Source: a virus. Taken from it: a stretch of DNA of 22,897 nt. Numbering within the stretch: the first letter of the stretch is position 1; the number at the start of each line of letters is the position of its first letter. The stretch spans positions 1-22,897 of IMG/VR virus record IMGVR_UViG_3300047491_000205. One strand, 5' to 3'. The position numbers and the translations under genes are program-made. The notes beneath the pieces are model-generated. The model did no database searches and was not told the origin of the DNA. It saw nothing but the letters and a program-made list of their open reading frames with translations. Positions 5,728 through 19,156 of the stretch are shown in pieces.

Positions 5728-6282
5728 TCATTGAACTGACATATTCCAAGACACAATTTTTCTTGGAACATCACTTTTATTTGGTAACGTGTAATGATTT
5801 AACATTCCAGGAAAAAAGATAATAGATCCTTCTACAATGTCTGGAGGAGTAAAATACTCAGTTCCACCTCTTAATAGGTTGTTATAAGGTGATATAAAAT
5901 GCGTAGCAGTATGTATCTCAGGATCATAATCCAAATAACACACTACACTAATGCTAGCACCGTGATTATGGATTTCATGAAACATATTTTTATCTTGCTG
6001 CTGAAACCAAGCAAGAGTAACTTGACAATCATTTAATCCAGAAATTTCTCTGTACCTTCCAATTTCATCTTTAAAGAGAGTAGCGATTCTTTTACTAAGA
6101 TATTGAGATGATTCTGGCGCTTGTTCATAATATGTTGTCTTGATGTACTCAGTTTCTTTTAATTGCTGAGCCTTCATCATTGTGATCAAAAACTGCTTTT
6201 TTTCGATCCAATTGCTTGCCGAGATATGAATAAGAGGAATCCTAAACATATCAATGTAATAATCATTGTTTGTGTCTATCAT
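5728..6282 (-). CDS. 2OG-Fe(II) oxygenase, TIGR02466-like
   Basis: Probably a third iron/2-oxoglutarate dioxygenase, from a different subfamily than the pair downstream. The segment from F101, EIHNHGASISVVCYLD, holds the His-rich iron site (H105/H107). The distal ligand is H163 (GMLNHYTLPN), and R174 (VPRKIVSWNMS) would bind 2OG. The GSIIFFPGMLNH block is typical of the cupin-like core of such phage and bacterioplankton enzymes. It is a soluble protein of 184 residues. Its 5' end overlaps the preceding membrane-protein gene by 20 bases. The substrate is unknown, and no partner enzyme is adjacent. Confidence 0.78.
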   Translation of the reverse strand: MIDTNNDYYIDMFRIPLIHISASNWIEKKQFLITMMKAQQLKETEYIKTTYYEQAPESSQYLSKRIATLFKDEIGRYREISGLNDCQVTLAWFQQQDKNMFHEIHNHGASISVVCYLDYDPEIHTATHFISPYNNLLRGGTEYFTPPDIVEGSIIFFPGMLNHYTLPNKSDVPRKIVSWNMSVQ

Positions 6283-6505
6283 TTAATTCTTTTTCCAATT
6301 CTTTAGCAAGTTTCATCGAACGACGCCATATCATATATTTTACCACAGGATTTGCAGGATTGTGTAACAACCACCACTTCATCTTTTCATACTGAAATCT
6401 TATTAATCTTGTAATCAAAACTATTGCTGCTGCAACACTACTATCTGTTACAATCACATATGCAAGAACAGCAAATATAATAAAATATATGTATTGTGGA
6501 CTCAT
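6263..6505 (-). CDS. Small membrane protein, 80 residues
   Basis: ATG 6505 (MSPQYIYFIIFAVLAYVIVT) is chosen over a GTG three codons earlier, because the ATG overlaps the previous stop by one base (TGATG). Residues 5-21 and possibly 26-38 are hydrophobic, giving one long or two short membrane helices. A basic, helical cytoplasmic tail follows (MIWRRSMKLAKELEKELNDR). The positive tail points inward by the positive-inside rule. Function unknown. Confidence 0.72.
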   Translation of the reverse strand: MSPQYIYFIIFAVLAYVIVTDSSVAAAIVLITRLIRFQYEKMKWWLLHNPANPVVKYMIWRRSMKLAKELEKELNDRHKQ

Positions 6506-6699
6506 CAGTGCCACCGTAAACCATTTAGATATTCTAGCACAGTTTCTCGTATGTCCATCAACTCATGAAAACAACGTTGTTCATGAGCCGCTTGCCTTAA
6601 CTCACTATCTGGTTTATAAACACTCTCAATAAACAAATCTAAACCACGATTCCATTTGTCTTGTTTAGATTCATTATCATTAATTACATAGTCATCCAT
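6505..6699 (-). CDS. Hypothetical protein, 64 residues
   Basis: ATG 6699 (MDDYVINDNESKQDKWNRGL) has GGAG nine bases upstream; a TTG five codons earlier is part of that same ribosome binding site and is rejected. The protein is acidic and helical, with a His/Cys-containing middle (AAHEQRCFHELMDIRETVLE). A TAAATA motif formed by the preceding stop codon lies about 24 bases upstream. No family recognised. Confidence 0.7.
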   Translation of the reverse strand: MDDYVINDNESKQDKWNRGLDLFIESVYKPDSELRQAAHEQRCFHELMDIRETVLEYLNGLRWH

Positions 6700-6721
6700 T
6701 ATGGAAATCTCCAAATTTATT

Positions 6722-6729
6722 CTATTTAA
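6722..6729 (-). promoter_or_regulatory. Late-promoter-like motif GTTAAATA at a stop codon
   Basis: The stop TAA of the 87-residue gene is followed by ATA, making a TAAATA core. A GGAG and the next ATG follow within about 25 bases. This is one of four places in the window where the stop codon supplies the first half of the late-type motif. It is the weakest of the four by flanking match. Confidence 0.35.
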
Positions 6730-6989
6730 CCAAGAAACTCTTCCAGAGTTGCAGATCCTTTTTTAGATTTTTTAGTTTTAATTTGACGTTGAATGTATGT
6801 TCTGGCGGCAGAGTAGTTGTTTGCTAGATGAACCTGTTGTCCATTGTGAATGATGACAAACTTTTTAGAATTTATCATCGGAACTGCTGCCCACATTCCG
6901 TCTTTGGTAACATAACCTTGTGGATCTCCTGGGGTAGGATCAAGAACTCCAGGGCGATCAATAAAAGGTTTTTGGAATGCCTCGCTCAT
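6726..6989 (-). CDS. Hypothetical protein, 87 residues
   Basis: Begins MSEAFQKPFIDRPGVLDPTP. The first 30 residues are Pro/Gly-rich and probably extended. The rest forms a small domain (MWAAVPMINSKKFVIIHNGQ, then VHLANNYSAARTYIQRQIKT), followed by a Lys-rich stretch and a Leu-Phe tail. The basic linker KTKKSKKG could bind nucleic acid. It overlaps the preceding 46-residue gene by one base (TGATG). Family not recognised. Confidence 0.75.
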   Translation of the reverse strand: MSEAFQKPFIDRPGVLDPTPGDPQGYVTKDGMWAAVPMINSKKFVIIHNGQQVHLANNYSAARTYIQRQIKTKKSKKGSATLEEFLG

Positions 6990-7129
6990 CAGAATACTGC
7001 AGTGACACCAATTACCCTAGCACTCGGATTACGTGCCAGAGCAGTACGCTTGGCATCCTCATAATCACGTGCCTCAACAAACTCATCAAAGACCTTGCCA
7101 GCGACATAGAGTTGGACTTTGCAGCGCAT
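6989..7129 (-). CDS. Hypothetical protein, 46 residues, strong ribosome binding site
   Basis: A short gene starting MRCKVQLYVAGKVFDEFVEA. Its start is strongly supported by AGGAGG ten bases before the ATG and by the one-base overlap with the next gene. The predicted fold is beta-beta-alpha-beta: a strand pair (KVQLYVAGKVFDEFV), a helix (DYEDAKRTALAR) and a last strand (ARVIGVTAVF). It is the first gene after the terminator-promoter cassette downstream of the helicase. Function unknown. Confidence 0.75.
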   Translation of the reverse strand: MRCKVQLYVAGKVFDEFVEARDYEDAKRTALARNPSARVIGVTAVF

Positions 7130-7157
7130 TGGGGGAATTCCTCCTGATGTGTAGGTA

Positions 7158-7192
7158 GTTTAGCAGAAAACTCAGCGTTTGACAACGCTGAT
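7158..7192 (-). terminator. Terminator overlapping the helicase stop, then a -10-like box (cassette 2)
   Basis: On the minus strand TCAGCGTT (7192-7185), loop GTCA and AACGCTGA (7180-7173) form an eight-pair hairpin that includes the helicase stop codon. TTTT follows at 7171-7168, then CTGC, then TAAACT (7163-7158), a weak -10 with an upstream TG. Eleven bases (GTTTTCTGCTA) are identical to the cassette upstream of the helicase. Confidence 0.7.
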
Positions 7193-8407
7193 GGCAGGCA
7201 GACCCTGTTGGAACACGGTGTCCACCACCGCTTGGACCTTCTTAGCGGTGCTGATGCCCACAGAAGAGTAGACAGGGATGCAGACCAACCCAAAGGACTT
7301 GGTGTAGTCTGCAAGGGCGCCAGGGGCGATCCTGCCGCTGCTGAGACCCTCTGCGTCGTCCTTGTGCAGGCGAATGACCCGTCCGATGGTCTGAGAGATG
7401 CCGATGTAATCCATAGACCGCATAAACAGGACCGCTTCCAGACCAGACACGTTGATGCCCTCGCTCAGGATGCTGTGATGAAGAACCACAAACTTCTTAG
7501 AGTCATCCTTACCCCAAGCACTCAGAGTGTCAAAGAACACCTCACGGTTGACCTTCTGACCATCAATCACGGCACCAGTCTTGGACGTGATATACATCCA
7601 AGAGAAACCACGCTCCTCCAGTTGAGTGCAGAAATCAGTCTCAGAAACCAGGGAAATGATCTGTTTGGTTGCCTTGGAGCAAATCAGAACCTTGCCCACT
7701 TCCTGAGCATCAATAGTCTGAATCAGGTTCTCACAGTCAACATCAGCAACAATCTGACCCTTGGAGAGCATCTCAAACTGCTGCACCACAACCTTAGGAG
7801 GAACGATGAAACCACCGTCCACCAATTCAGGGGCAGGCACATTGCAGATCACGTTGCCATAAACGGCAGCATCATTCATGCCAGGTTTGGAAATAGTAGC
7901 AGAATGCTTAGGAGTAGCAGTGAAGAAATAGCAGCGGTCAGCAGAAGCAGCGAAGTGCTCCGTAGCAGGAAAAAAGTGACGCTGGACGCTGTTGTGTGCT
8001 TCATCAAAGTAAATGGTATCAACGTGAATGTCTGCCTGCTGCAGGCGCTGCAGGGAGTTGTAAGTGGTGAAGATCAGTTGATGCTTATAGGCACGACGGG
8101 ACCAGTTGTGAATCTCAGAAGGTTTGGTCGTGCTTTGGTGATGCGTCTCACCACTATGAACGTGCAGAACAGCAGCAGTCGTGATAAACTCAAGGAACTC
8201 ACTGGACAACTGCTCTGCCAGGAGGATGCGCGGCGCCACCACTACAATGGTCTTAGGAGCATCAGACTGAAACTCACGCAGGGCATCAAAGATGGCAATA
8301 TTGGTCTTGCCACCGCCAGTCGGAATGATCACCTGACCCTTGCGGTGCTGCAGCAGGGAATCCAGAGCACGGTGCTGGTGGGGACGGAGTTGAATCACTG
8401 ACCTCAT
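7172..8407 (-). CDS. Superfamily 2 DNA/RNA helicase (UvsW-like)
   Basis: A complete SF2 helicase of 411 residues. Motif I is PTGGGKTN at 29-36, motif II is DEAH at 135-138, motif III is TAT at 163-165, motif V lies around 312-328 (SILSEGINVSGLEAVLFM), and motif VI is QTIGRVIR at 339-346 with its arginine finger. An RPHQHRAL segment at 8-15 serves as a Q-like motif. It should use ATP to move along or unwind branched nucleic acids, as T4 UvsW does in recombination and replication restart. It is shorter than T4 UvsW (about 500 residues), so I call it UvsW-like only. It is far richer in G+C than its neighbours (40 of 60 bases at 7321-7380) and stands alone between two terminator-promoter cassettes. 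Confidence 0.88.
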   Translation of the reverse strand: MRSVIQLRPHQHRALDSLLQHRKGQVIIPTGGGKTNIAIFDALREFQSDAPKTIVVVAPRILLAEQLSSEFLEFITTAAVLHVHSGETHHQSTTKPSEIHNWSRRAYKHQLIFTTYNSLQRLQQADIHVDTIYFDEAHNSVQRHFFPATEHFAASADRCYFFTATPKHSATISKPGMNDAAVYGNVICNVPAPELVDGGFIVPPKVVVQQFEMLSKGQIVADVDCENLIQTIDAQEVGKVLICSKATKQIISLVSETDFCTQLEERGFSWMYITSKTGAVIDGQKVNREVFFDTLSAWGKDDSKKFVVLHHSILSEGINVSGLEAVLFMRSMDYIGISQTIGRVIRLHKDDAEGLSSGRIAPGALADYTKSFGLVCIPVYSSVGISTAKKVQAVVDTVFQQGLPAISVVKR

Positions 8408-8420
8408 TGCGTATAGGACT

Positions 8421-8426
8421 ATTATA
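8421..8426 (-). promoter_or_regulatory. Extended -10 promoter for the helicase
   Basis: TGCTATAAT on the minus strand gives a perfect -10 with the extended TGn element. It comes four bases after the TTTT of the terminator at 8431-8462. No recognisable -35 is present, because that position falls in the terminator stem. The predicted start leaves only a seven-base leader before ATG 8407. Confidence 0.65.
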
Positions 8427-8430
8427 GCAG

Positions 8431-8462
8431 AAAACCGCCCCTGGTGCGACCCAGTGGACGGT
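8431..8462 (-). terminator. Intrinsic terminator of the tail-fibre operon (cassette 3)
   Basis: Minus-strand ACCGTCC (8462-8456) pairs with GGGCGGT (8440-8434, one G-T pair). Inside it, CTGG pairs with CCAG around a six-base loop, with one bulged A. A TTTT run follows. The GC-rich stem plus T run directly downstream of the last fibre gene is a textbook rho-independent terminator. It is followed after four bases by the helicase -10. Confidence 0.8.
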
Positions 8463-8496
8463 TCTTTAAGTGTCCTAGTATCTCATCTCCAACCCA

Positions 8497-8532
8497 GACA
8501 AAGGTAGTCTAACAATAAAAGACTACTTTGTC
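8497..8532 (-). repeat. Second hairpin after the fibre operon
   Basis: GACAAAGTAGTC (8532-8521) and GACTACCTTTGTC (8509-8497) are inverted copies with one bulged base, around an 11-base AT-rich loop. There is no T run on either strand, so it is not a typical terminator. It could protect the 3' end of the fibre mRNA or pause polymerase before the true terminator 35 bases on. Confidence 0.6.
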
Positions 8533-8540
8533 AATCATTA

Positions 8541-8885
8541 TCAAGCAGGATTTATCTGAAGTGCTCCTGCATTACTTACAGATAATCTATATTTTGTGCC
8601 ATTTGCCGCAGTTAAAATCAAACCCTGAGATGTATTAATTCCAGCACGAATATCTCCACCAACAACATCCACAAAATATGCTGGAGTTGTACTTCCTACA
8701 CCAACATAATTTCCTGTTGTAGTGTCAATAACTAGATCAGAAACTATCTTACCACCAATACTTACATCAGTGCTGATAGCGACTGTGTTAGCATTAAGGT
8801 TTAAATTATTTGGACTCTGAAGCGTTGGTGATCCCGAAGATCCAATGAGGGTAAACTCTTTAACGCCAAATTTTTTATTTGCCAT
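8541..8885 (-). CDS. Small tail-fibre-like structural protein, 114 residues
   Basis: Begins MANKKFGVKEFTLIGSSGSP. It is rich in Ser, Thr, Asn, Gly and Val in short alternating strands. It carries the fibre motif GNYVGVGSTTPAYFVDVVGG, the same type as VGIGTSVPSEVLDVRG in the 978-residue protein. It is probably a virion protein, either a short fibre subunit or a cap/adaptor in the adhesin complex. It is the last gene of the fibre operon, 18 bases after the protease stop, with a TAAATA motif in between. No enzyme motif. Confidence 0.78.
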   Translation of the reverse strand: MANKKFGVKEFTLIGSSGSPTLQSPNNLNLNANTVAISTDVSIGGKIVSDLVIDTTTGNYVGVGSTTPAYFVDVVGGDIRAGINTSQGLILTAANGTKYRLSVSNAGALQINPA

Positions 8886-8900: not shown

Positions 8901-8908
8901 TATTTAGG
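8901..8908 (-). promoter_or_regulatory. Late-promoter-like motif CCTAAATA at a stop codon
   Basis: The protease stop codon TAA plus ATA forms the TAAATA core 15 bases before the ATG of the 114-residue gene. In T4-like phages such cores are read by the late sigma factor gp55 with the gp45 clamp. It would allow the small fibre gene to be expressed separately from the large genes before it. Confidence 0.5.
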
Positions 8909-10943
8909 CTTTGATGGTTAATGGTCCAGATACAGTTAATCCATTGCCACGGAAAAAGTCAATAGCATCAGTCTTACCACCTTCTGGTAATTCGTAAATT
9001 ACAATACCTTCTCCACCCTCTAAACTATTTACATCAGACCAGTTGGAATCATTAGCAGTTACTGATTCTCTTCCATAATAAAACTGCTCTGGTTTTTGTC
9101 TCTGAAGACCTTTTTTAAGGTAGTTTCTAACTTCTCTCCAACTCCAGTCTCGATTATTAGATAATAAACAAGCAATCAATCCTGTGGCAACAGGACAAGC
9201 AGCACTAGTTCCACCAAATTTACCGTCATACATCGATGGAGTTCCACCTGTGTAAGTATCATATCTCAATCGATTGCTTCCATATCCAGAAGAACTATAC
9301 CATTGTGCTGTTAAAATACCGTCTGCTGGTGCATAACAATCGATTGAGTTACCCATATCACTATAATTAACCTTTCTCTCTAACCCAGAACCTGTAAATG
9401 AGTCATCCAGAGCACCAATATTAATTGCAGGATAAACATACTGTGCTGTTTTTCCTAAATGTTGAGGGAATCCTCTACGATTTGTTGTTGGATAAACAGA
9501 AATTCCAATGTTATAAAATGCACCATCAGTAACTGCTGCATTAGCAGTATCATTAAAGAAATTATTAAAGTCGGGATGATTTGGTTCGACTTGCTTTTGA
9601 TTGGAATTTCCCGCTGCAACAACAAAAATAACTCCAGCATTAATCATTTCTTCACCAGCAGCAGTCCAAGTATTGTCAATAAATTCTGATTTCATTCTAT
9701 TTCCAGAGTCTCCATAATATCCAACCCACTTCATAAATCCTGGTGCAGTATTAGTTGCATTAAGTGGACCAAGATTTTTATTTACATAAGCAACTCCAGA
9801 TTGAGTTCTATCAAGATTTAATCCAACTTGATAGTAGTAATATCCATTATTTGGCGGCGCAGAACGATAACCCCAACTATTGCTACTTACTGTTGGATCT
9901 TTAGTTCCATAAGTTGGATTGATTGGTTTTGAATTATGAAAAATTTTCATCATATCAAAATAGACACCAATACCAACACCATTGGTATTATAAACATTTA
10001 CAAACCACTTGTTTGCATTATAAGCCCAACCTTGTGTTCTACCATAAGTTGCAGCACAGCAAGGTGTTCCGTGATCGCCAACTGATCCTACAGAAGTATT
10101 TGATCCAGTACAGAATGATCTTGTATAACTGGAAGTAACTTGTACTGTCCCTATTCCGATAAAATCAAGTGATCGATTTGATGAATTTGACCACCACGTT
10201 TTTGCTTCTGATTCTGTTGGGACTGTAGAACCATCCCAACGAGTTGTAAGTCTAGTTCCAGGACTTGCATTAAACCAGGCAGGATCAATGTAATAAGGTG
10301 CGTCAAGAGCGAGATCCATAAGATCACAAGTGCCACCAAATAAATTTCCACCAACGTAGTCTGTTGGATTTACAGTTCCAGTTGCATTACTTTGGAATTC
10401 GACGTGCCCAAACCAACAACCATCATCACCAACAATAACATCCACATCAGGAGCTCCACCACTGTTTACTGTAATAGTGTCACTAATTACAGTATTAGCA
10501 GGTCCACCAGCCCAAGGATTATCTCTTTGAGTACATCTCAAAAGTTGATGACCTGTTCTACCCGCTTCTGCTGCGGTTGGTGAAGTTGGAAGATCTCCAC
10601 TATCATAAAAGTTTCTATAATTCTTTACTGAAGATGGAAGTCTTTCTCTTTCTGTTAGAGAAGTTGCATAAAGTTCCTCAGCAGGAGGCATAATTTCATC
10701 AAAGTAAGAATCATAATCTAGACTTACGAATCTCACTTTTGGATGATTTTTTAGAGAGGCAACTTCATCTTCATCAAGAAGATAGACTGCCCTAGTGTCA
10801 CTGTGATCTCTTATATTACCAACCTCAACCGCGTGGGAAGGTATATTATCTTCTAGTGTTCCATCTTGCGTCAAAACTTCGTGGATGTAAGTCCAATCTT
10901 CTGGAGTATAACATCCAACTTCGTATAACTTCTTCTCAGACAT
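8904..10943 (-). CDS. Subtilisin-like serine protease with propeptide (S8), tail operon
   Basis: A 679-residue subtilase with a full catalytic set: D173 (VIVGDDGCW), H291 (GDHGTPCCAA), oxyanion N446 (VVAAGNSNQ) and S580 (GGTSAACPVATG). Residues 38-80 (RAVYLLDEDEVASLKNHPKV) look like an inhibitor-I9 propeptide, so it is probably made as a zymogen. The gap between Asp and His is over 110 residues, much longer than in subtilisin. No secretion signal is seen. The last residues (LTVSGPLTIKA) resemble the beta repeats of the neighbouring fibre proteins, suggesting attachment to the virion. It starts four bases after the 978-residue gene. Possible roles are digestion of host surface proteins or processing of the fibres; both are inference. 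Confidence 0.88.
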   Translation of the reverse strand: MSEKKLYEVGCYTPEDWTYIHEVLTQDGTLEDNIPSHAVEVGNIRDHSDTRAVYLLDEDEVASLKNHPKVRFVSLDYDSYFDEIMPPAEELYATSLTERERLPSSVKNYRNFYDSGDLPTSPTAAEAGRTGHQLLRCTQRDNPWAGGPANTVISDTITVNSGGAPDVDVIVGDDGCWFGHVEFQSNATGTVNPTDYVGGNLFGGTCDLMDLALDAPYYIDPAWFNASPGTRLTTRWDGSTVPTESEAKTWWSNSSNRSLDFIGIGTVQVTSSYTRSFCTGSNTSVGSVGDHGTPCCAATYGRTQGWAYNANKWFVNVYNTNGVGIGVYFDMMKIFHNSKPINPTYGTKDPTVSSNSWGYRSAPPNNGYYYYQVGLNLDRTQSGVAYVNKNLGPLNATNTAPGFMKWVGYYGDSGNRMKSEFIDNTWTAAGEEMINAGVIFVVAAGNSNQKQVEPNHPDFNNFFNDTANAAVTDGAFYNIGISVYPTTNRRGFPQHLGKTAQYVYPAINIGALDDSFTGSGLERKVNYSDMGNSIDCYAPADGILTAQWYSSSGYGSNRLRYDTYTGGTPSMYDGKFGGTSAACPVATGLIACLLSNNRDWSWREVRNYLKKGLQRQKPEQFYYGRESVTANDSNWSDVNSLEGGEGIVIYELPEGGKTDAIDFFRGNGLTVSGPLTIKA

Positions 10944-10947
10944 AAGA

Positions 10948-13884
10948 TTACGTTCTAATTACGGTGTGACGAGTCCAAGTATAAGTTGTTACTCCAGAAA
11001 CGCCTGCCTCTGGTGTAACAAGTAAGCGGAAAAGACCAGCATCAATTGTTGATCCAATGGAAACGATTTGATTTGGTTCATACATTACAGCAAATTCTTG
11101 TGAGAATGCATTTGTTCCGTTATGCATACAAAGAACTTTCTGCGACTGAATATTTCCATTCCACTCAAAATATAATGTATATTCAGCAGTTCTAAAGTTA
11201 TAAGTAGAAACTCCAATGACATCAATCGATGTGGAAACACCCACGGATGCAGTAAATGTTGATGCTTTTGATTCGATACCAAAAGACTGAACCATAAACG
11301 AAGAAGTTAAAACATCAGTCTTAACACCAACTGCTTTAATCGTAGTAATTCCTACGTCACCACTTGCAGTAATACCCCAGGTTCCACCGATGCTAACTCC
11401 TCCGCCGCCAGTTGCATTAATTGTTGCAACACCACCAGCAATAGATGCTGTAATATTAGTACCAAAGTTAATAGTTGCCGCAGTACCAACTGGAGATCCA
11501 TCATCTTGGATAACAACACCAGAACCAGTTGCAACAACACCAGTTAGACCAGAACCATCACCAATGAATTGGTTTGCATATACTGTTCCCCAACGAAGCA
11601 AGGAAGTTCCAAGATCTCTAGTTAATGAAACATTTGGTACAATGCTGCTATCAACTCTTCCTGTAAATGTAACGGTATCTGATGTTGCATTTCCAAGATC
11701 TACGTCACCATTAAATGATGCTGTGCTAGTAACTGCCAATGTAGAACTTAATGTAGTTTGACCCGATACGCTAAGAGTATCATCAATAGTAGTTGTACCA
11801 CCAGCAGAATCGATTGTTAGATTACCAGTGGAAGTATCAATTTCATTATCACCTGCAATACCGATTCTAATATTATCAATTGTAGCTCCACCATTAGCAT
11901 CTAATAAACCATTAACTGTAGCTTGGTTAGAAACGGTCAGGTTTGTAAAAGCACCAGCAGAAGATCCTGGAATTGCAACCCAAGAAGATCCATCAAAGAA
12001 TTGGAATACTTTATCTGAAATATTATAAATTAAGGCACTTTCTTGAACAATTGAGTTCATTCCTGTTCTTTCTGCCGTTGTCAAAACTGGCATATAAGCA
12101 GGAGCTCTAACTGAAGCACTGTATTTTGCGTATCTCGCATCAATTGCACCAATAGGTAAATAACTTCCAATGCCAATTAGAGAATTAGTATTAACAAGTA
12201 AGTTACCTCTTTCAACTCTTAAAGCTCTATTCCATACTTGTAACGCACCAAGATCAATCTGTGATGCTGGAGTACCATCACCACCAACTCCATTATAAAT
12301 TGCAGTTGTACCGAATCCAACAACGCTATCTTTTGATGTAACTACATTACCCTCAACAAATACTTTATTGTTTTCACCAATTCCACCAGCAGTTACTCCA
12401 ATTCCCAATGCACCAAAAACTGCGGTTCCAGAAGAAGCATCAACTGCACAATTAGCACTTGAGGTATTAAACCCTACATTTCCTTGTATATTAACATTAT
12501 TAAGTGTGGTGATTCCTGAGTTAACATTGATGTTTTGTTGTAAAGGTGATGTAGGATCGCCTAAAATAACTCCACCAACTGCGATAGTTCCATTTGTAAA
12601 AATATTACCACCAAAGAAAGCATTCCCAGTAACTGTTGAAGTTCCAACAACATGAAGTTGTCTTTCTGGATTTGTTAATCCAATTCCCAAAGAACCATCA
12701 TAAGTTAAACACATCAATTCATCAAAGTTTTGACCATTTATCCATTGGAATCTACCAGTGTTAATTCCAGATGATCCAGCGTGTAGTAAGAAATTAAAGT
12801 TTCCTGGTGATTTATTATAAATGTCAAACTCACCAAGAGTATCTCCATATCTCAAGAATCCGCCTAGATTTCCTGTACCTCCAGTGATTGACTGAGCAAT
12901 TGAGATAATTGCTGGTCCCGAAGTAGAAGCAACTTCAACAAAAGTACTTCCTGCGTTTCCATTATCAATTTGTAAGTTTTTAGTTGGACTCGAAACACCG
13001 ATACCAACTCTTCTTGATACCCTAGCAGTAAATCCTGTTCCACCAGCACCAACATCAAATTGTCCACCAACAGTCGAAATACCTGGTATAGGAGTTGCAG
13101 CATCACCAGTAATCTCAATACTTAATGCTCTAATGCTTCTTGCACTTAAGAATCCGACAAAAATATCTGGTTCACCAATTAACGTTTGAGCTGTGCTCGC
13201 AATACCTATTACATTACCTTGTAAAGTTCCATCAAATCTGTTCCCAGCAGTAATAATTCCACTAATGTTTAGATTAGATGGAAAGCGATCATTATTAATA
13301 ATTGGAAGTCTATCATTACTTAAAGTTCCAACATCAATATTATCTGCATCCAACAACTGCAAATTAGACCCAAATCCAACGAAACTAAATGCGGTGAAAA
13401 TACCACTACTTACAATATCTCCCTGAGAATTAATACCAACACCAGTTTTACCTGCAATACCTGCCTGCCAAAGATTTGCCTGTCCAACTTGCAAAACAAA
13501 TCTTGGATCTCTCGTTGCAATACCAACATTTCCAACAGCATAAATGCTGGTAAATCCTAATCCAACATCAACATCTTGCCATTGAGATGTTGGTAGGTTG
13601 AGAAGAGTAGCACCATTTCCATAAAATTCTTTAGCGGTAATGATTCCGCTACTATTCATCGTAATCGCTGTTCCAGCAATTGTTAATTCTTTAACAGTCG
13701 CAATACCAACAGCGAAAAAATCTCTAGTTGTTGTAGTACCAACAACTTTAAGAGTGCCACGTACATCAAGAACTTCAGATGGAACCGAAGTTCCAATACC
13801 AACTAGACTACCTCTTACAATAAGATCATCATCATCGACCGCGATGCCATTTCTAAAGTTAAATGACTTCCTGATATTCGCCAT
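10948..13884 (-). CDS. Tail-fibre/adhesin-like structural protein, 978 residues
   Basis: Begins MANIRKSFNFRNGIAVDDDD. It is a long run of short Gly/Thr/Ser/Ile-rich beta repeats with recurrent motifs such as VGIGTSVPSEVLDVRG, VGIATRDPRFVLQVG and IGLTNPERQLHVVGT, typical of trimeric phage fibres. A block near residues 664-690 (RIGIAGDNEIDTSTGNLTI) is shared with the 1752-residue protein. The C-terminus after about 850 is a globular beta domain ending in TYTWTRHTVIRT that could be the receptor-binding tip. No chaperone domain is seen at its own end. It starts 13 bases after the upstream stop, with GATAAATA between. Confidence 0.85.
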   Translation of the reverse strand: MANIRKSFNFRNGIAVDDDDLIVRGSLVGIGTSVPSEVLDVRGTLKVVGTTTTRDFFAVGIATVKELTIAGTAITMNSSGIITAKEFYGNGATLLNLPTSQWQDVDVGLGFTSIYAVGNVGIATRDPRFVLQVGQANLWQAGIAGKTGVGINSQGDIVSSGIFTAFSFVGFGSNLQLLDADNIDVGTLSNDRLPIINNDRFPSNLNISGIITAGNRFDGTLQGNVIGIASTAQTLIGEPDIFVGFLSARSIRALSIEITGDAATPIPGISTVGGQFDVGAGGTGFTARVSRRVGIGVSSPTKNLQIDNGNAGSTFVEVASTSGPAIISIAQSITGGTGNLGGFLRYGDTLGEFDIYNKSPGNFNFLLHAGSSGINTGRFQWINGQNFDELMCLTYDGSLGIGLTNPERQLHVVGTSTVTGNAFFGGNIFTNGTIAVGGVILGDPTSPLQQNINVNSGITTLNNVNIQGNVGFNTSSANCAVDASSGTAVFGALGIGVTAGGIGENNKVFVEGNVVTSKDSVVGFGTTAIYNGVGGDGTPASQIDLGALQVWNRALRVERGNLLVNTNSLIGIGSYLPIGAIDARYAKYSASVRAPAYMPVLTTAERTGMNSIVQESALIYNISDKVFQFFDGSSWVAIPGSSAGAFTNLTVSNQATVNGLLDANGGATIDNIRIGIAGDNEIDTSTGNLTIDSAGGTTTIDDTLSVSGQTTLSSTLAVTSTASFNGDVDLGNATSDTVTFTGRVDSSIVPNVSLTRDLGTSLLRWGTVYANQFIGDGSGLTGVVATGSGVVIQDDGSPVGTAATINFGTNITASIAGGVATINATGGGGVSIGGTWGITASGDVGITTIKAVGVKTDVLTSSFMVQSFGIESKASTFTASVGVSTSIDVIGVSTYNFRTAEYTLYFEWNGNIQSQKVLCMHNGTNAFSQEFAVMYEPNQIVSIGSTIDAGLFRLLVTPEAGVSGVTTYTWTRHTVIRT

Positions 13885-13897
13885 CTTGTTTTTTTAG

Positions 13898-16800
13898 TTA
13901 TTTATCTGAGAGTTTTTCCTCTAGTTTCTCAACCTTAGCATTTAATTCTTTAATTGCTTCGATCAGAAGAGGAACAATTTTTTGATAATCAACAGCAAGA
14001 TAACCGTTGTCTCTTTCAGTAACAATTTGTGGAAGAACTTCCTTAATTTCTTGAGCGACAACACCTACATCTTCACCAGTATGATGTGACTTATCATTCC
14101 AAGTAAATGTATTACCACTAATCGACAATACTTTTGCAAGAGGATCGTCAATTGGTGTGATATTATCTTTTAGTCTATAGTCAGAACTATAGAATGCAGT
14201 GATGTCATCAGTAACACTGAGAATACCAGTAATTCTTGTGTGAGTTGTAATTGCAACAAGACTTCCAGTCGTTGCTCCGATACTTAGGTTTCCAGTCGAA
14301 GAGTTAATTGTATTAGGATCTAAAAGTCCAATCCTTACATTTCTAAATGTTGCACCTGTGCTACAGTTAACTACACCAACAAAAGTGCTAATACCAGTAA
14401 CAATCGAAGAACCAGCGATACCAATGTTTTCACCAATGAATACGTTACGATCAATTCCAACACCGCCATCAATAAGAACAGCACCAGTATCTTTGCTTAC
14501 AGATTGAGTGACATTAGTTACACTCAGTTCACTAGTAATTTTTAAAGTGTTGTCCATAATTGTTGGACCATTCACTTTAACTTCATTATTAAACGTTACT
14601 GGTCCATCAAATTGTGAAAGTGCGGTATTCGAGGAACCACCCTCAACACGAATTCTCTCCTTAACAAGAACTTCATCAAATACAACACTAAGTCTGGTTG
14701 TATCTTGCCCTCTTACGGTAGGAACTGGGATATCAAAGGTTGTTTGAGTACCAGAAGAAGATGAGTACTTGGTATTGCCGATGAAGAAGTCTCCATCGTT
14801 GTTCATACCAGTATAAGCGATGTTTCCACCTGCAGTTTCTTGAGCTTGTGCAAGATAACTTTCTTGTTCGGTAAGAGTTTTTACCTGAACCTGTGGTAAT
14901 CCAGTTGAATAGTTACCAGGACCATAACCAAGATACTCAAATGTGTGACCAGAAGCACGAACAACAGATGGTCTACGGAACTCAACAGCGATTGGTCTTA
15001 TTTTCTTGATTAAAGATCCAACTTGATGGTCTTCTCTTAGAGTTCCTAACTGACCTCTAGCAACTTGTAATTTATCATTATTAGTACCAGTCAAAGTAGA
15101 ACTGGTAACTCTCATTATTTCATTATCAATCTGAATATAAGAACCGACAGGGAATCTTGATGTTGTAGAAATTCCTGAAGTAATTTCTACCTTAAATGAT
15201 GTTTGAGTCGTAACCGTCTCATTTAATCTTAAAGTCTCATTAGCATAAACAGTAACTGTTCTTCCACCAAAATCTCCAGGATTTGCATTATTTGCAGAAT
15301 AGAATGACTTAAGGATATATGCAGGAGAAGTTAGACTTGATTGTGTAATTGCCGAGAAAGTGTTGACTCCAACTTTTTCTTTGACAAAGAAACTACCAAG
15401 ATTTGTATTACTTGCATTTCTAACAGTGAAAGAATTGCCAGCAAGTAGACCGTGAGCAGATGCACAAGTAAACGTAGTTATTCCCGTTGTCGTATCAAAA
15501 GTAGATGAAGTAACAGTAGGTGTTGGTCCAACGTGAATTAAATATTGACCAGGAACAAGTCTTGGATCGACACCAGCACGATGGTGAATTGCAATTTGAT
15601 TCTTTGCAGGGAAAGATGAAATTCTAAAATACCCACCAGAAGTTGTACCAATACCAGTAACTTGTACGGTATCACCAAGTGCTGAAGAAAGTCCAACAAT
15701 CGAAACTGTTATGCCAGCACCAACACCAGCGCCAATAACTGATGTATCAAAGTCAAGTTCTTCACCGTTTGTATAAGCCGAACCACCAGTAATAATATCA
15801 ACTGATGTAATTGTTCCACTAGAAATATTAACTTTTGCAGTGGCACCATCCCAAGTTGCTGTTCCGTTATTAAACAGTTTTACATTATAGAATGTGCCAT
15901 TATTGTATCCATTTCCACCAGCAAAACTTGCAACAGTTGCAATACCAGAAAGATTATGCTCTTTGCTTAAGGTTAAAGTAGAAATTCCAACAGATGTTGT
16001 AATACCAGTGATTCTTAATCCAAACCCAAGATCAGTTGTGAACTTATCAATTGTTTCTCTGGTAACACTGTTTCTTAAATCATTAGTTATAACAGCGCCA
16101 AGTGGACTTCTCTTTGCATAAGTTTTTGCTGTTGGTGGATTATCATCAATATTATCTTTATCTGATTGTGGATAAAAATCATTGATATTTTGACTATATT
16201 TAATGTCTGTAAATTCTTCTTCGATTGAATTATCAGAATTTAGTAGATATAATTGATAGATACCATCCTGAACTTGATAAATGTATGGTGTAATAACATC
16301 CTTACGATAAATGAAGATATTAGATCTTAAATCATTCCTTTCAAATCTTGGGAGATTGACATCTCGGGTGTTATTATCATTTAAATATGTACCTACACTA
16401 TGACCTAAACCATCAACATCGGTAGTATTATATTGGAATTGTTTGTCTGAAACTGCTGTAACCTCGAAAGTTCCATTAAAACCAATATTATCATCTGCAC
16501 CCAAATTAGTGGTGCTCTTAACTTTTTTAATGTTAACTCTATCACCTACTTTTAAATTGTGAGGAAGTTCAGTTAAGACAGTGACTGTTGGTGAAGAGTA
16601 TGTACACGTTGCAATTAAACCAGGATTTCTTTGGAAGTCGAAGTCTAAATCTGTAATGGTGTTTGTCGTTAGATCTAAATTCGCTCTAGGACCCGTGGAG
16701 CTGGATTCTTGAATAATAAATCCTTCGCTTGGATCTTTAGAGTTAAATGCTTCTTTAGGAATAACAACTTGTACTTTGTAAAGTTTGTCATCCAAACTTC

Positions 16801-19156
16801 TGGAATCATCAAAACGTTTTACATAAGCAACATCCGTTCTGACTGTTAAATTACCAACTCCTTCTGTTCTGAGTGCGTTGTAAATTTGGTTTCCAGAATT
16901 AACGTGAATAAACCAATTTCGATAAACAGGGTCATACTGAACAGGATGTCCAATATCTCCAGCTTGCTTATCTGAAACGGCACTTACGATTGATAAATTA
17001 GTTCCACCATAAATTGTAAGTGCCGTTCCATTGTCAGCATTTGTTTTTGATGATGCAATCTTGATTGTAGTATTGCTATCATAAATCGCATAATAAAGAG
17101 TATTTTCTACAAGATTTTCTGGAAGGTCTCCATTGTCACTAAAGATTCTAATACTTTCTCCCGTTTTAAGGTCGTGGAATCCGATAGTGAAGATATTATT
17201 TACATCAGGACCTGAGGTAACTCTATATTTCTTTTCTGAAATATTAGTTCCTGTTGCTTGAGTAGATCCTGCACCAATTGCTTCATTAACCATATAAATG
17301 GTTGCTTCACTAGTTGCAGCGCCAATGTTGACATATAACTTGTCATCATTTTTAGAACCAACGCGATATCCTTGAATAATTGTTGGTGGAATATCATCTT
17401 GAGCAGTAAATCCATAAAGATATAAATGACTACTAATACCAACAGCAGTTGTTAACCCAACATCCAATGAAATCCAATCAATGTCTGCAAGTTCACTAAC
17501 GATTGCTTTAGGTGGAACAATTGCTGTGATATATCCTTTGTCGTCTTTTGTAAATGCTTCTTTCTTAAATCCTTCAGCGTATAATGAGAATTGTCCGAAG
17601 TTTGAGTTCGAGTTAGTAATCGAAGCATCTGCTCCATTTACTGCATAAAAATGTTTATGGAATCCGATCGCAAAAACAGAAACAATCTGAATAACAGCAT
17701 CATTGGACTGTTTAATGTGTGCAGTTTGCCAACCTGGTCTATAAACAGCCTCAGAATCAAAGTGATAAACAGTATCAATATCTGTAGATGATGATCCTGC
17801 GGAAAGATCAGCTGCTGTTACCTTTGTAATATTAATTCCTTCATATTTTCTACTTGACTTGTTATACTTAACAAATGCACGGTCATCTTTTTGTAGCGAG
17901 ATAGCAGTAAACTGTGCAACAACCATTGAACGGAAACCATCTGCATTCTTTCCGTCAGCGTGCATCCCCTGCATACCCCATACAGAACGTAGCGATACGT
18001 TAAAGATGTAAGGGGATGCTCCAGAAACTGTATCAGTTTCAATCGTGATTGTTGCACCAGAAACTGGAGGTGCTGGATCTAAATTAATTCTAGGTGCTGG
18101 GAGAATATATGTAAATTGATTATCTGCTAAAACTTGTGTAACTTTAGTAGAAATATTGTAGTCTTCTACACCAACTCCTTTAATTTTAATCGGAGTTCCT
18201 GCAGTAAATCCGTGCTCTGTTGCTGTAGTTACTGTAATAACCGTTGTTGGAGTAAATCCGTCACCCGAAATAAGAGTTGAGATATTAATAGGGTCTGATG
18301 CAAATGCACCAACGATTTCCCATTCTGCTCTCTGCTTAGCGAAACCAAGAGGAAGTGCTGGATACTTTTGGTCAATATCTCTACCCGATCCTGTATTATA
18401 TGCGTTCGAAAGTTTCGCATAATACATATCAAGGTCGGTTAACTCAAAACCAGGAACCTTGTTTACACCATCAGCATACTCAAAACAAGTTAGTTTGTGG
18501 TGAGAGAATGTTGGTGTTGATTGGTTGTTTTCAGAAGAGTCTACAGGGTCTGTATAAACAAGACCTGTTTCTAGACCATCGAAGAAAGTAAACTGCCAGA
18601 AATAACAAGTACCAGTAATTCTAAAGATAGCACTATCTGGTGCATCGGGATCAGTAGGATTAGGTACATACTTAGGACGAATCTTAGTTTTTCTAAGATC
18701 AAGACCCACCAATGAAGTTCCTCTAGGAACAATAACACCACCATTAACACTATTAAACTTATAAAGCTGGTTGCTTGGATCAGTTAGATCAAATGAAGAT
18801 TCAAGAGATAAACCAAACTGCAATCCTGCAGGAGATTCTGAACCAGCGCCAGCGGATGGTGCAACTGCAATCGCAGATCCAGAAACGTTTTTAATTCTAT
18901 AACCAGGTCTGTTATCAATTACGTGTTCACCTGGAAAAAGAAGAATCGTAGTTTTTTCTACAAGATCGTTATTGCTACCTCTTAAATAAGAGAATCTCGC
19001 AGACTCAATAAGAGCTCTCTGAATCGTTTTAAAAGGTTTTGTAAGTGAGTTACCCTGATTATCAATGCTGTCTGTGGCATCAAGATCGCTTGGGTTTACA
19101 TAAAGAATACGACCTTCAGTATTCTTAATAAAATTCTCTAGTCTATTAAGAGGCAT
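13898..19156 (-). CDS. Giant beta-helix virion protein with C-terminal S74 chaperone, 1752 residues
   Basis: The N-terminus (ILYVNPSDLDATDS, SLTKPFKTIQRALIESA, then TTILLFPGEHVIDN) matches the opening of right-handed parallel beta-helix, pectate-lyase-like proteins. The middle is a long series of beta modules with 'GIGT' and 'TTVTTATEHGF' type repeats. The last 95 residues are an intramolecular chaperone of the endosialidase/S74 type: SDYRLKDNI with Ser1658 and Lys1663 in the catalytic spacing, then VGVVAQEIKEVLPQIV and a coiled coil (AIKELNAKVEKLEEKL). In that family the domain trimerises the fibre and then cuts itself off. It is the first and largest gene of the fibre operon, probably a side fibre or spike. 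It has no normal ribosome binding site; a 16-base palindrome lies there instead. Confidence 0.88.
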   Translation of the reverse strand: MPLNRLENFIKNTEGRILYVNPSDLDATDSIDNQGNSLTKPFKTIQRALIESARFSYLRGSNNDLVEKTTILLFPGEHVIDNRPGYRIKNVSGSAIAVAPSAGAGSESPAGLQFGLSLESSFDLTDPSNQLYKFNSVNGGVIVPRGTSLVGLDLRKTKIRPKYVPNPTDPDAPDSAIFRITGTCYFWQFTFFDGLETGLVYTDPVDSSENNQSTPTFSHHKLTCFEYADGVNKVPGFELTDLDMYYAKLSNAYNTGSGRDIDQKYPALPLGFAKQRAEWEIVGAFASDPINISTLISGDGFTPTTVITVTTATEHGFTAGTPIKIKGVGVEDYNISTKVTQVLADNQFTYILPAPRINLDPAPPVSGATITIETDTVSGASPYIFNVSLRSVWGMQGMHADGKNADGFRSMVVAQFTAISLQKDDRAFVKYNKSSRKYEGINITKVTAADLSAGSSSTDIDTVYHFDSEAVYRPGWQTAHIKQSNDAVIQIVSVFAIGFHKHFYAVNGADASITNSNSNFGQFSLYAEGFKKEAFTKDDKGYITAIVPPKAIVSELADIDWISLDVGLTTAVGISSHLYLYGFTAQDDIPPTIIQGYRVGSKNDDKLYVNIGAATSEATIYMVNEAIGAGSTQATGTNISEKKYRVTSGPDVNNIFTIGFHDLKTGESIRIFSDNGDLPENLVENTLYYAIYDSNTTIKIASSKTNADNGTALTIYGGTNLSIVSAVSDKQAGDIGHPVQYDPVYRNWFIHVNSGNQIYNALRTEGVGNLTVRTDVAYVKRFDDSRSLDDKLYKVQVVIPKEAFNSKDPSEGFIIQESSSTGPRANLDLTTNTITDLDFDFQRNPGLIATCTYSSPTVTVLTELPHNLKVGDRVNIKKVKSTTNLGADDNIGFNGTFEVTAVSDKQFQYNTTDVDGLGHSVGTYLNDNNTRDVNLPRFERNDLRSNIFIYRKDVITPYIYQVQDGIYQLYLLNSDNSIEEEFTDIKYSQNINDFYPQSDKDNIDDNPPTAKTYAKRSPLGAVITNDLRNSVTRETIDKFTTDLGFGLRITGITTSVGISTLTLSKEHNLSGIATVASFAGGNGYNNGTFYNVKLFNNGTATWDGATAKVNISSGTITSVDIITGGSAYTNGEELDFDTSVIGAGVGAGITVSIVGLSSALGDTVQVTGIGTTSGGYFRISSFPAKNQIAIHHRAGVDPRLVPGQYLIHVGPTPTVTSSTFDTTTGITTFTCASAHGLLAGNSFTVRNASNTNLGSFFVKEKVGVNTFSAITQSSLTSPAYILKSFYSANNANPGDFGGRTVTVYANETLRLNETVTTQTSFKVEITSGISTTSRFPVGSYIQIDNEIMRVTSSTLTGTNNDKLQVARGQLGTLREDHQVGSLIKKIRPIAVEFRRPSVVRASGHTFEYLGYGPGNYSTGLPQVQVKTLTEQESYLAQAQETAGGNIAYTGMNNDGDFFIGNTKYSSSSGTQTTFDIPVPTVRGQDTTRLSVVFDEVLVKERIRVEGGSSNTALSQFDGPVTFNNEVKVNGPTIMDNTLKITSELSVTNVTQSVSKDTGAVLIDGGVGIDRNVFIGENIGIAGSSIVTGISTFVGVVNCSTGATFRNVRIGLLDPNTINSSTGNLSIGATTGSLVAITTHTRITGILSVTDDITAFYSSDYRLKDNITPIDDPLAKVLSISGNTFTWNDKSHHTGEDVGVVAQEIKEVLPQIVTERDNGYLAVDYQKIVPLLIEAIKELNAKVEKLEEKLSDK
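13899..13906 (-). promoter_or_regulatory. Late-promoter-like motif GATAAATA
   Basis: Matches the T4 late consensus at seven of eight positions (GATAAATA versus TATAAATA), overlapping the last two codons of the 1752-residue gene. It lies 14 bases before the ATG of the 978-residue gene and could start a separate late transcript for the second fibre. Confidence 0.5.

Follow-up and report, generated by a model that had tools for sequence, protein, structure and literature searches.

The window analysed here, a stretch of 22,897 nucleotides of viral DNA (IMG/VR record IMGVR_UViG_3300047491_000205), encodes a complete subtilisin-like serine protease embedded among tail fibre genes. Judged from its sequence and predicted structure, we favour with modest confidence that this subtilase is a zymogen held by a fibre, which would act as a tail component on protein at the host surface. 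The gene, its predicted domains and its active site residues are located as follows.

8904..10943, minus strand: subtilase coding sequence, 679 aa (P0001; PF00082, phrog_9158)
10704..10943, minus strand: I9-like propeptide domain, about aa 1-80, beta-alpha-beta-beta-alpha-beta by predicted fold, weak PF05922
9099..10574, minus strand: catalytic S8 domain, about aa 124-615 (PF00082 match, AlphaFold, Foldseek)
10425..10427, minus strand: catalytic Asp173, invariant in 90/90 homologues
10071..10073, minus strand: catalytic His291, invariant in 89/89
9606..9608, minus strand: oxyanion Asn446, invariant in 89/89
9204..9206, minus strand: catalytic Ser580 (GGTSAACP), invariant in 87/87
8907..8951, minus strand: C-terminal tail, aa 665-679, ending GNGLTVSGPLTIKA, a recurrent motif and possible docking strand

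The reading frame on the minus strand comprises 679 open codons; the plus strand of the same interval contains many stops. PF00082 was the sole Pfam match of the protein (E 1.3e-16, aa 173-612), scoring 61.2 bits against a cut-off of 21.8. The catalytic triad and the oxyanion Asn are exactly the residues named in the preliminary description of this DNA, and each is conserved in every homologue that reaches the respective position. Since this holds across 90 distinct homologues, chance is ruled out as an explanation of the active site. Only 24 of 643 alignment columns are invariant, these four positions among them, and dN/dS ranges from 0.08 to 0.27 in six pairs of close relatives, reflecting purifying selection; together with the invariant active site this indicates that the enzyme is real. 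From these sequence comparisons the window subtilase is probably under selection for activity. Loss of catalytic residues among homologues, proposed earlier, in combination with absence from virions, as a finding that would speak against the suggested role, was not observed in any homologue reaching the active site, and the invariance of the catalytic positions likewise rules out a catalytically dead homologue. A prohead protease of the T4 gp21 type was also rejected, as PF00082 alone matches and the head maturation protease of phage S-SCSM1 is a separate protein, gp040.

The AlphaFold model of the subtilase, built with 21 sequences, reached a pLDDT of 75.7 and a pTM of 0.83, with residues 86-108 and 133-160 poorly predicted. 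Foldseek comparison of this model to the PDB, a check suggested previously, retrieved 282 matches at E <= 0.001, of which the best 50 were subtilases or their complexes; S8 proteases were found throughout the matches listed, including unprocessed pro-subtilisin E (628 alignment columns) and ProN-Tk-SP (666). The protein thus belongs to MEROPS family S8 by a profile score above the curated cut-off, the Asp-His-Ser order with the oxyanion Asn, and the subtilisin fold. It shares this fold, residue order and oxyanion Asn as well as, by predicted fold, an I9-like N-terminal prodomain with cellular S8 subtilisins (pro-subtilisin E, proteinase K-like enzymes, ProN-Tk-SP), but is only 10-16% identical to them among the matches listed and differs in a long insertion between Asp and His, its viral structural context and the lack of a signal peptide. 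The latter, noted from the beginning, is deduced from a maximum hydropathy of 0.2 within the N-terminal 40 residues.

To the proposed I9-like propeptide, fold and sequence lent unequal support. When the first 87 residues were modelled alone (pLDDT 72.7) and compared with 350,542 PDB chains, the top four matches were pro-subtilisin E (two chains), the subtilisin BPN' propeptide and the subtilisin E propeptide, with E values of 0.02-0.04 and probabilities of 0.99-1.0. The PF05922 profile did not match the window protein and gave weak matches in 8 of 23 family members (best E 0.0087). The propeptide is therefore better supported by predicted fold than by sequence.

The protein is covered by the profile of PHROG 9158 (2e-100, aa 3-633), a family present in 47 phage records, all from cyanophages or marine viruses. 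Its members SSSM7_232 of S-SSM7 and PSSM2_297 of P-SSM2 constitute cluster T4-GC292, for which PF00082 is already noted in GenBank. The S-SSM7 protein is 42% identical to the window subtilase over its full length and the family likewise lies beside fibre genes, but it is catalogued as hypothetical protein or of unknown function, and no propeptide, partner domain or role has been assigned to it. Another S8 peptidase cluster, T4-GC518, occurs in P-HM1 and P-HM2 (Sullivan et al. 2010, PMC3037559). In IMG/VR, 344 of 369 pattern matches encode subtilase relatives, and the family is also found on contigs without known host. Compared to the subtilase, the neighbouring helicase is far more widespread, occurring in 430 records, 418 of them from cyanophages or marine viruses. 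As the window helicase is closest to that of S-SCSM1 (67%), the window most likely derives, by sequence relationship, from a Kyanoviridae-like virus of picocyanobacteria; psbA was present in 1 of 19 long contigs, which are fragments. A genome scan for cellular copies returned three contigs of bacterial metagenome-assembled genomes alone (L050-L052), probably viral DNA binned with bacteria. Two loci carry two tandem subtilases in one fibre cluster (L087:3695-5704 and 6001-8508; L127:2053-4110 and 6001-8121).

The genes surrounding the subtilase in the window are the following.

13898..19156, minus strand: large tail fibre gene, 1752 aa, with a C-terminal Peptidase_S74 chaperone domain (phrog_529, E 0; PF13884, 2.1e-13)
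10948..13884, minus strand: fibre gene lying upstream of the subtilase (978 aa; tail protein family phrog_3269)
10951..11367, minus strand: C-terminal domain of this fibre, aa 840-978, which we propose as the subtilase partner (subtilase next downstream in 18 of 18 phage records that match below 1e-8)
8541..8885, minus strand: a 114 aa gene downstream, short and similar to the N-terminal part of long fibre genes of cyanophages

The S74 chaperone-of-endosialidase module of the large fibre is self-cleaving in other phages. Stop codon of the 978 aa fibre gene and start codon of the subtilase are arranged as TAA-TCTT-ATG, in agreement with the 4-base gap originally reported. The placement between two fibre genes also holds, given the phrog_3269 tail protein upstream and the 57-64% identity that the 114 aa downstream product shares with P-SSM2_298 and S-SCSM1 gp143 at their N-termini. 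Similar to long fibre genes in their N-terminus alone, this short gene is possibly a shortened or split fibre.

An open frame lies upstream of the subtilase at 86 homologous loci. Gaps between the two are nearly all -17 to +22 bases, and most by far of these frames can be recognised, from their C-terminal type or a family match, as fibre-, baseplate- or tail-like. Among their C-termini, six types recur, besides one pair and several singletons; most type representatives match tail fibre or baseplate connector PHROGs, the representative from locus L010 being without a match. Public labels of the upstream fibre genes at loci L036, L037 and L002 are doubtful, e.g. 'flagellar hook-length control protein' and 'FhaB'. 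For the window type of C-terminal domain (about 100 residues), the phage collection gave 21 matches; a subtilase gene follows directly in all of the top 18 (E 2e-9 or better). Three matches were weak (E 1e-5 to 3e-4), two from S-SM2 records and one from AG-345-O18: in S-SM2 the distant relative is followed by another gene, and in AG-345-O18 it forms a free 123 aa gene before the terminase. Such distant relatives upstream of a terminase gene, once as a free 123 aa protein, lie in T4-like phages at L132:4069-4440 and L131:3720-5384. A second C-terminal domain, type B, also occurs in phages in which no subtilase was found. Linkage to the 978-residue gene, which the preliminary description proposed to look for in cyanomyoviruses, is hence real and mainly concerns its C-terminal domain of about 100 residues rather than the whole gene. 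From these sequence associations we interpret the end of the fibre as a docking site for which the protease is the partner; less probably, it may be the substrate instead.

The subtilase itself ends in a short beta-strand tail, described earlier as a fibre-like LTVSGPLTIKA motif, which proved to be recurrent. A strict G-x-L-x-I-x-G-L-x-I-like pattern was present in 41 of 83 complete homologues, compared to 2% of shuffled tails and 0.1% of internal windows; as the pattern was written after the tails had been seen, these figures are descriptive. The tail has low pLDDT in the monomer model.

In several relatives the protease is fused to other domains. S-SCSM1 gp144 (1411 aa, annotated as 'baseplate wedge subunit') combines S8 and Laminin_G_3 lectin domains in one chain, the protease occupying residues 175-547. 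It is the best viral structure match of the window subtilase (6.8e-27) and has the homologous subtilase part behind the same upstream fibre C-terminal domain in the same order, but carries lectin domains of its own and is a remote relative with about 25% identity. In S-TIM54, a single 2140 aa protein (L004:7998-14420) annotated as virion structural contains the same propeptide (50% identity) and subtilase as the window; it differs in having an alpha/beta-hydrolase esterase (BD-FAE, 7e-13) between these two parts and Ig domains after the protease. Furthermore, an inserted domain of about 190 residues immediately precedes Ser580 in 21 of 90 homologues. At locus L010 this insert resembles a domain of tail fibre proteins from phages of Stenotrophomonas and Xanthomonas and, likewise, a protein of S-SRM01 (35-44% identity). 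An intein or intron at the Ser motif, considered in view of split tblastn matches around residue ~567, was rejected, the insertion being in frame, free of stops and similar to a tail fibre domain. The C-terminal stretch of the ACG-2014e homologue shows a weak likeness to plastocyanin (0.029), and at L040:5386-7446, as well as in L039 and L041, a cupredoxin-like His...Cys...His...Met arrangement lies behind the subtilase, with Pfam Copper-bind at just 0.029.

The GenBank record of S-SCSM1 tags about 47 genes as 'virion protein', including gp144 and its upstream neighbour gp145, a number close to the 45 proteins identified for S-SCSM1 by mass spectrometry (PMC9602691). The tags cover non-structural proteins named in that study and omit several obvious structural genes; they therefore most likely mark detection by mass spectrometry. 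A stand-alone protease is not named in the published virion proteomes among openly licensed papers, and the report of 14 virion proteins for S-CREM1 is silent on whether its peptidase is one of them. The suggestion that the protease is virion-borne thus gained indirect support, all of it from relatives: the tagged gp144 fusion, the lectin, Ig and esterase fusions, and the strict fibre linkage.

The proposed mode of action starts with a zymogen whose I9-type N-terminal domain would aid folding and block the active site until autocleavage. Translated right after the fibre gene, the subtilase would become a tail component, probably held by the fibre C-terminal domain and perhaps attached via its own beta-strand tail. 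At the host surface it may cut an envelope protein, easing receptor access or penetration. Several points count against this reading: the virion tag belongs to a remote fused relative, the stand-alone protease is not named in the virion proteomes covered, the fibre linkage also fits a maturation protease, and the mature enzyme would need to be prevented from digesting its own fibres.

The preliminary description had left a choice between degradation of host surface protein, for example an S-layer, and maturation of the fibres. In the latter case the subtilase would cut the neighbouring fibre, at its C-terminal domain or assembly region, inside the infected cell, and retention in the virion would be optional. 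Immediate linkage, likely co-translation with the fibre gene and the almost one-to-one co-occurrence of the window-type C-terminal domain with the subtilase are in line with such a role. However, the linked fibre C-termini belong to at least six unrelated types without a common domain to cut, the type-B domain also exists in phages without a detected subtilase, the S-SM2 relative of the window-type domain is followed by a different gene, and the subtilase is patchy (47 records, compared to 430 for the helicase). Moreover, fusions to lectin, Ig and esterase domains are not expected for a processing enzyme. Because of the unrelated fibre tips and the patchy distribution we favour degradation at the host surface and regard maturation, the main rival, as rather unlikely. 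None of the findings points to an S-layer in particular.

We give still less credence to a free enzyme, either released at lysis or intracellular, that lies near fibre genes by operon history alone. As a general class, phage proteases that attack host proteins are known, and the missing signal peptide would fit this scenario, but the linkage persists among highly divergent homologues and with several types of fibre, a fusion form (S-SCSM1 gp144) is tagged as virion protein, and the short beta-strand tail recurs. A catalytically idle structural or adhesin scaffold reusing the subtilase fold would accommodate the large insertions that a quarter of the homologues carry close to the active site. 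It appears very improbable in view of four invariant catalytic positions in an alignment with so few invariant columns.

Extending the preferred reading of a fibre-held, host-directed protease, we tentatively propose, at somewhat less than even confidence, an exchangeable tip unit that is widespread in aquatic T4-like viruses. Each of the fibres, their tips being unrelated, would serve as the dock for a protease that activates itself and removes envelope proteins of the host, and lectin, esterase, Ig or fibre adhesin domains, shuffled in even beside the catalytic Ser, would aim it. The proposed likeness is to the polysaccharide depolymerases of tailspikes, as tail enzymes acting at the host surface. 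The folds are unrelated and the likely target here is protein, not glycan.

The gene family itself is known; new are the proposed role, that of a zymogen protease docked on a fibre, and the exchange of modules, neither of which we found in openly licensed papers, where we also found no study of a cyanophage tail subtilase. To our knowledge, phage tail enzymes have nearly always been described as glycan depolymerases or peptidoglycan hydrolases. If the proposed role is true, protein joins the host-surface targets of phage tail enzymes, and the exchangeable tip unit would represent a protein-degrading counterpart of tailspike depolymerases. A testable role is thereby offered for PHROG 9158, a family of unknown function, and the test is practical because several isolated phages carry the subtilase. 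Such a protease could bear on the host range of the abundant marine phages of Synechococcus and Prochlorococcus.
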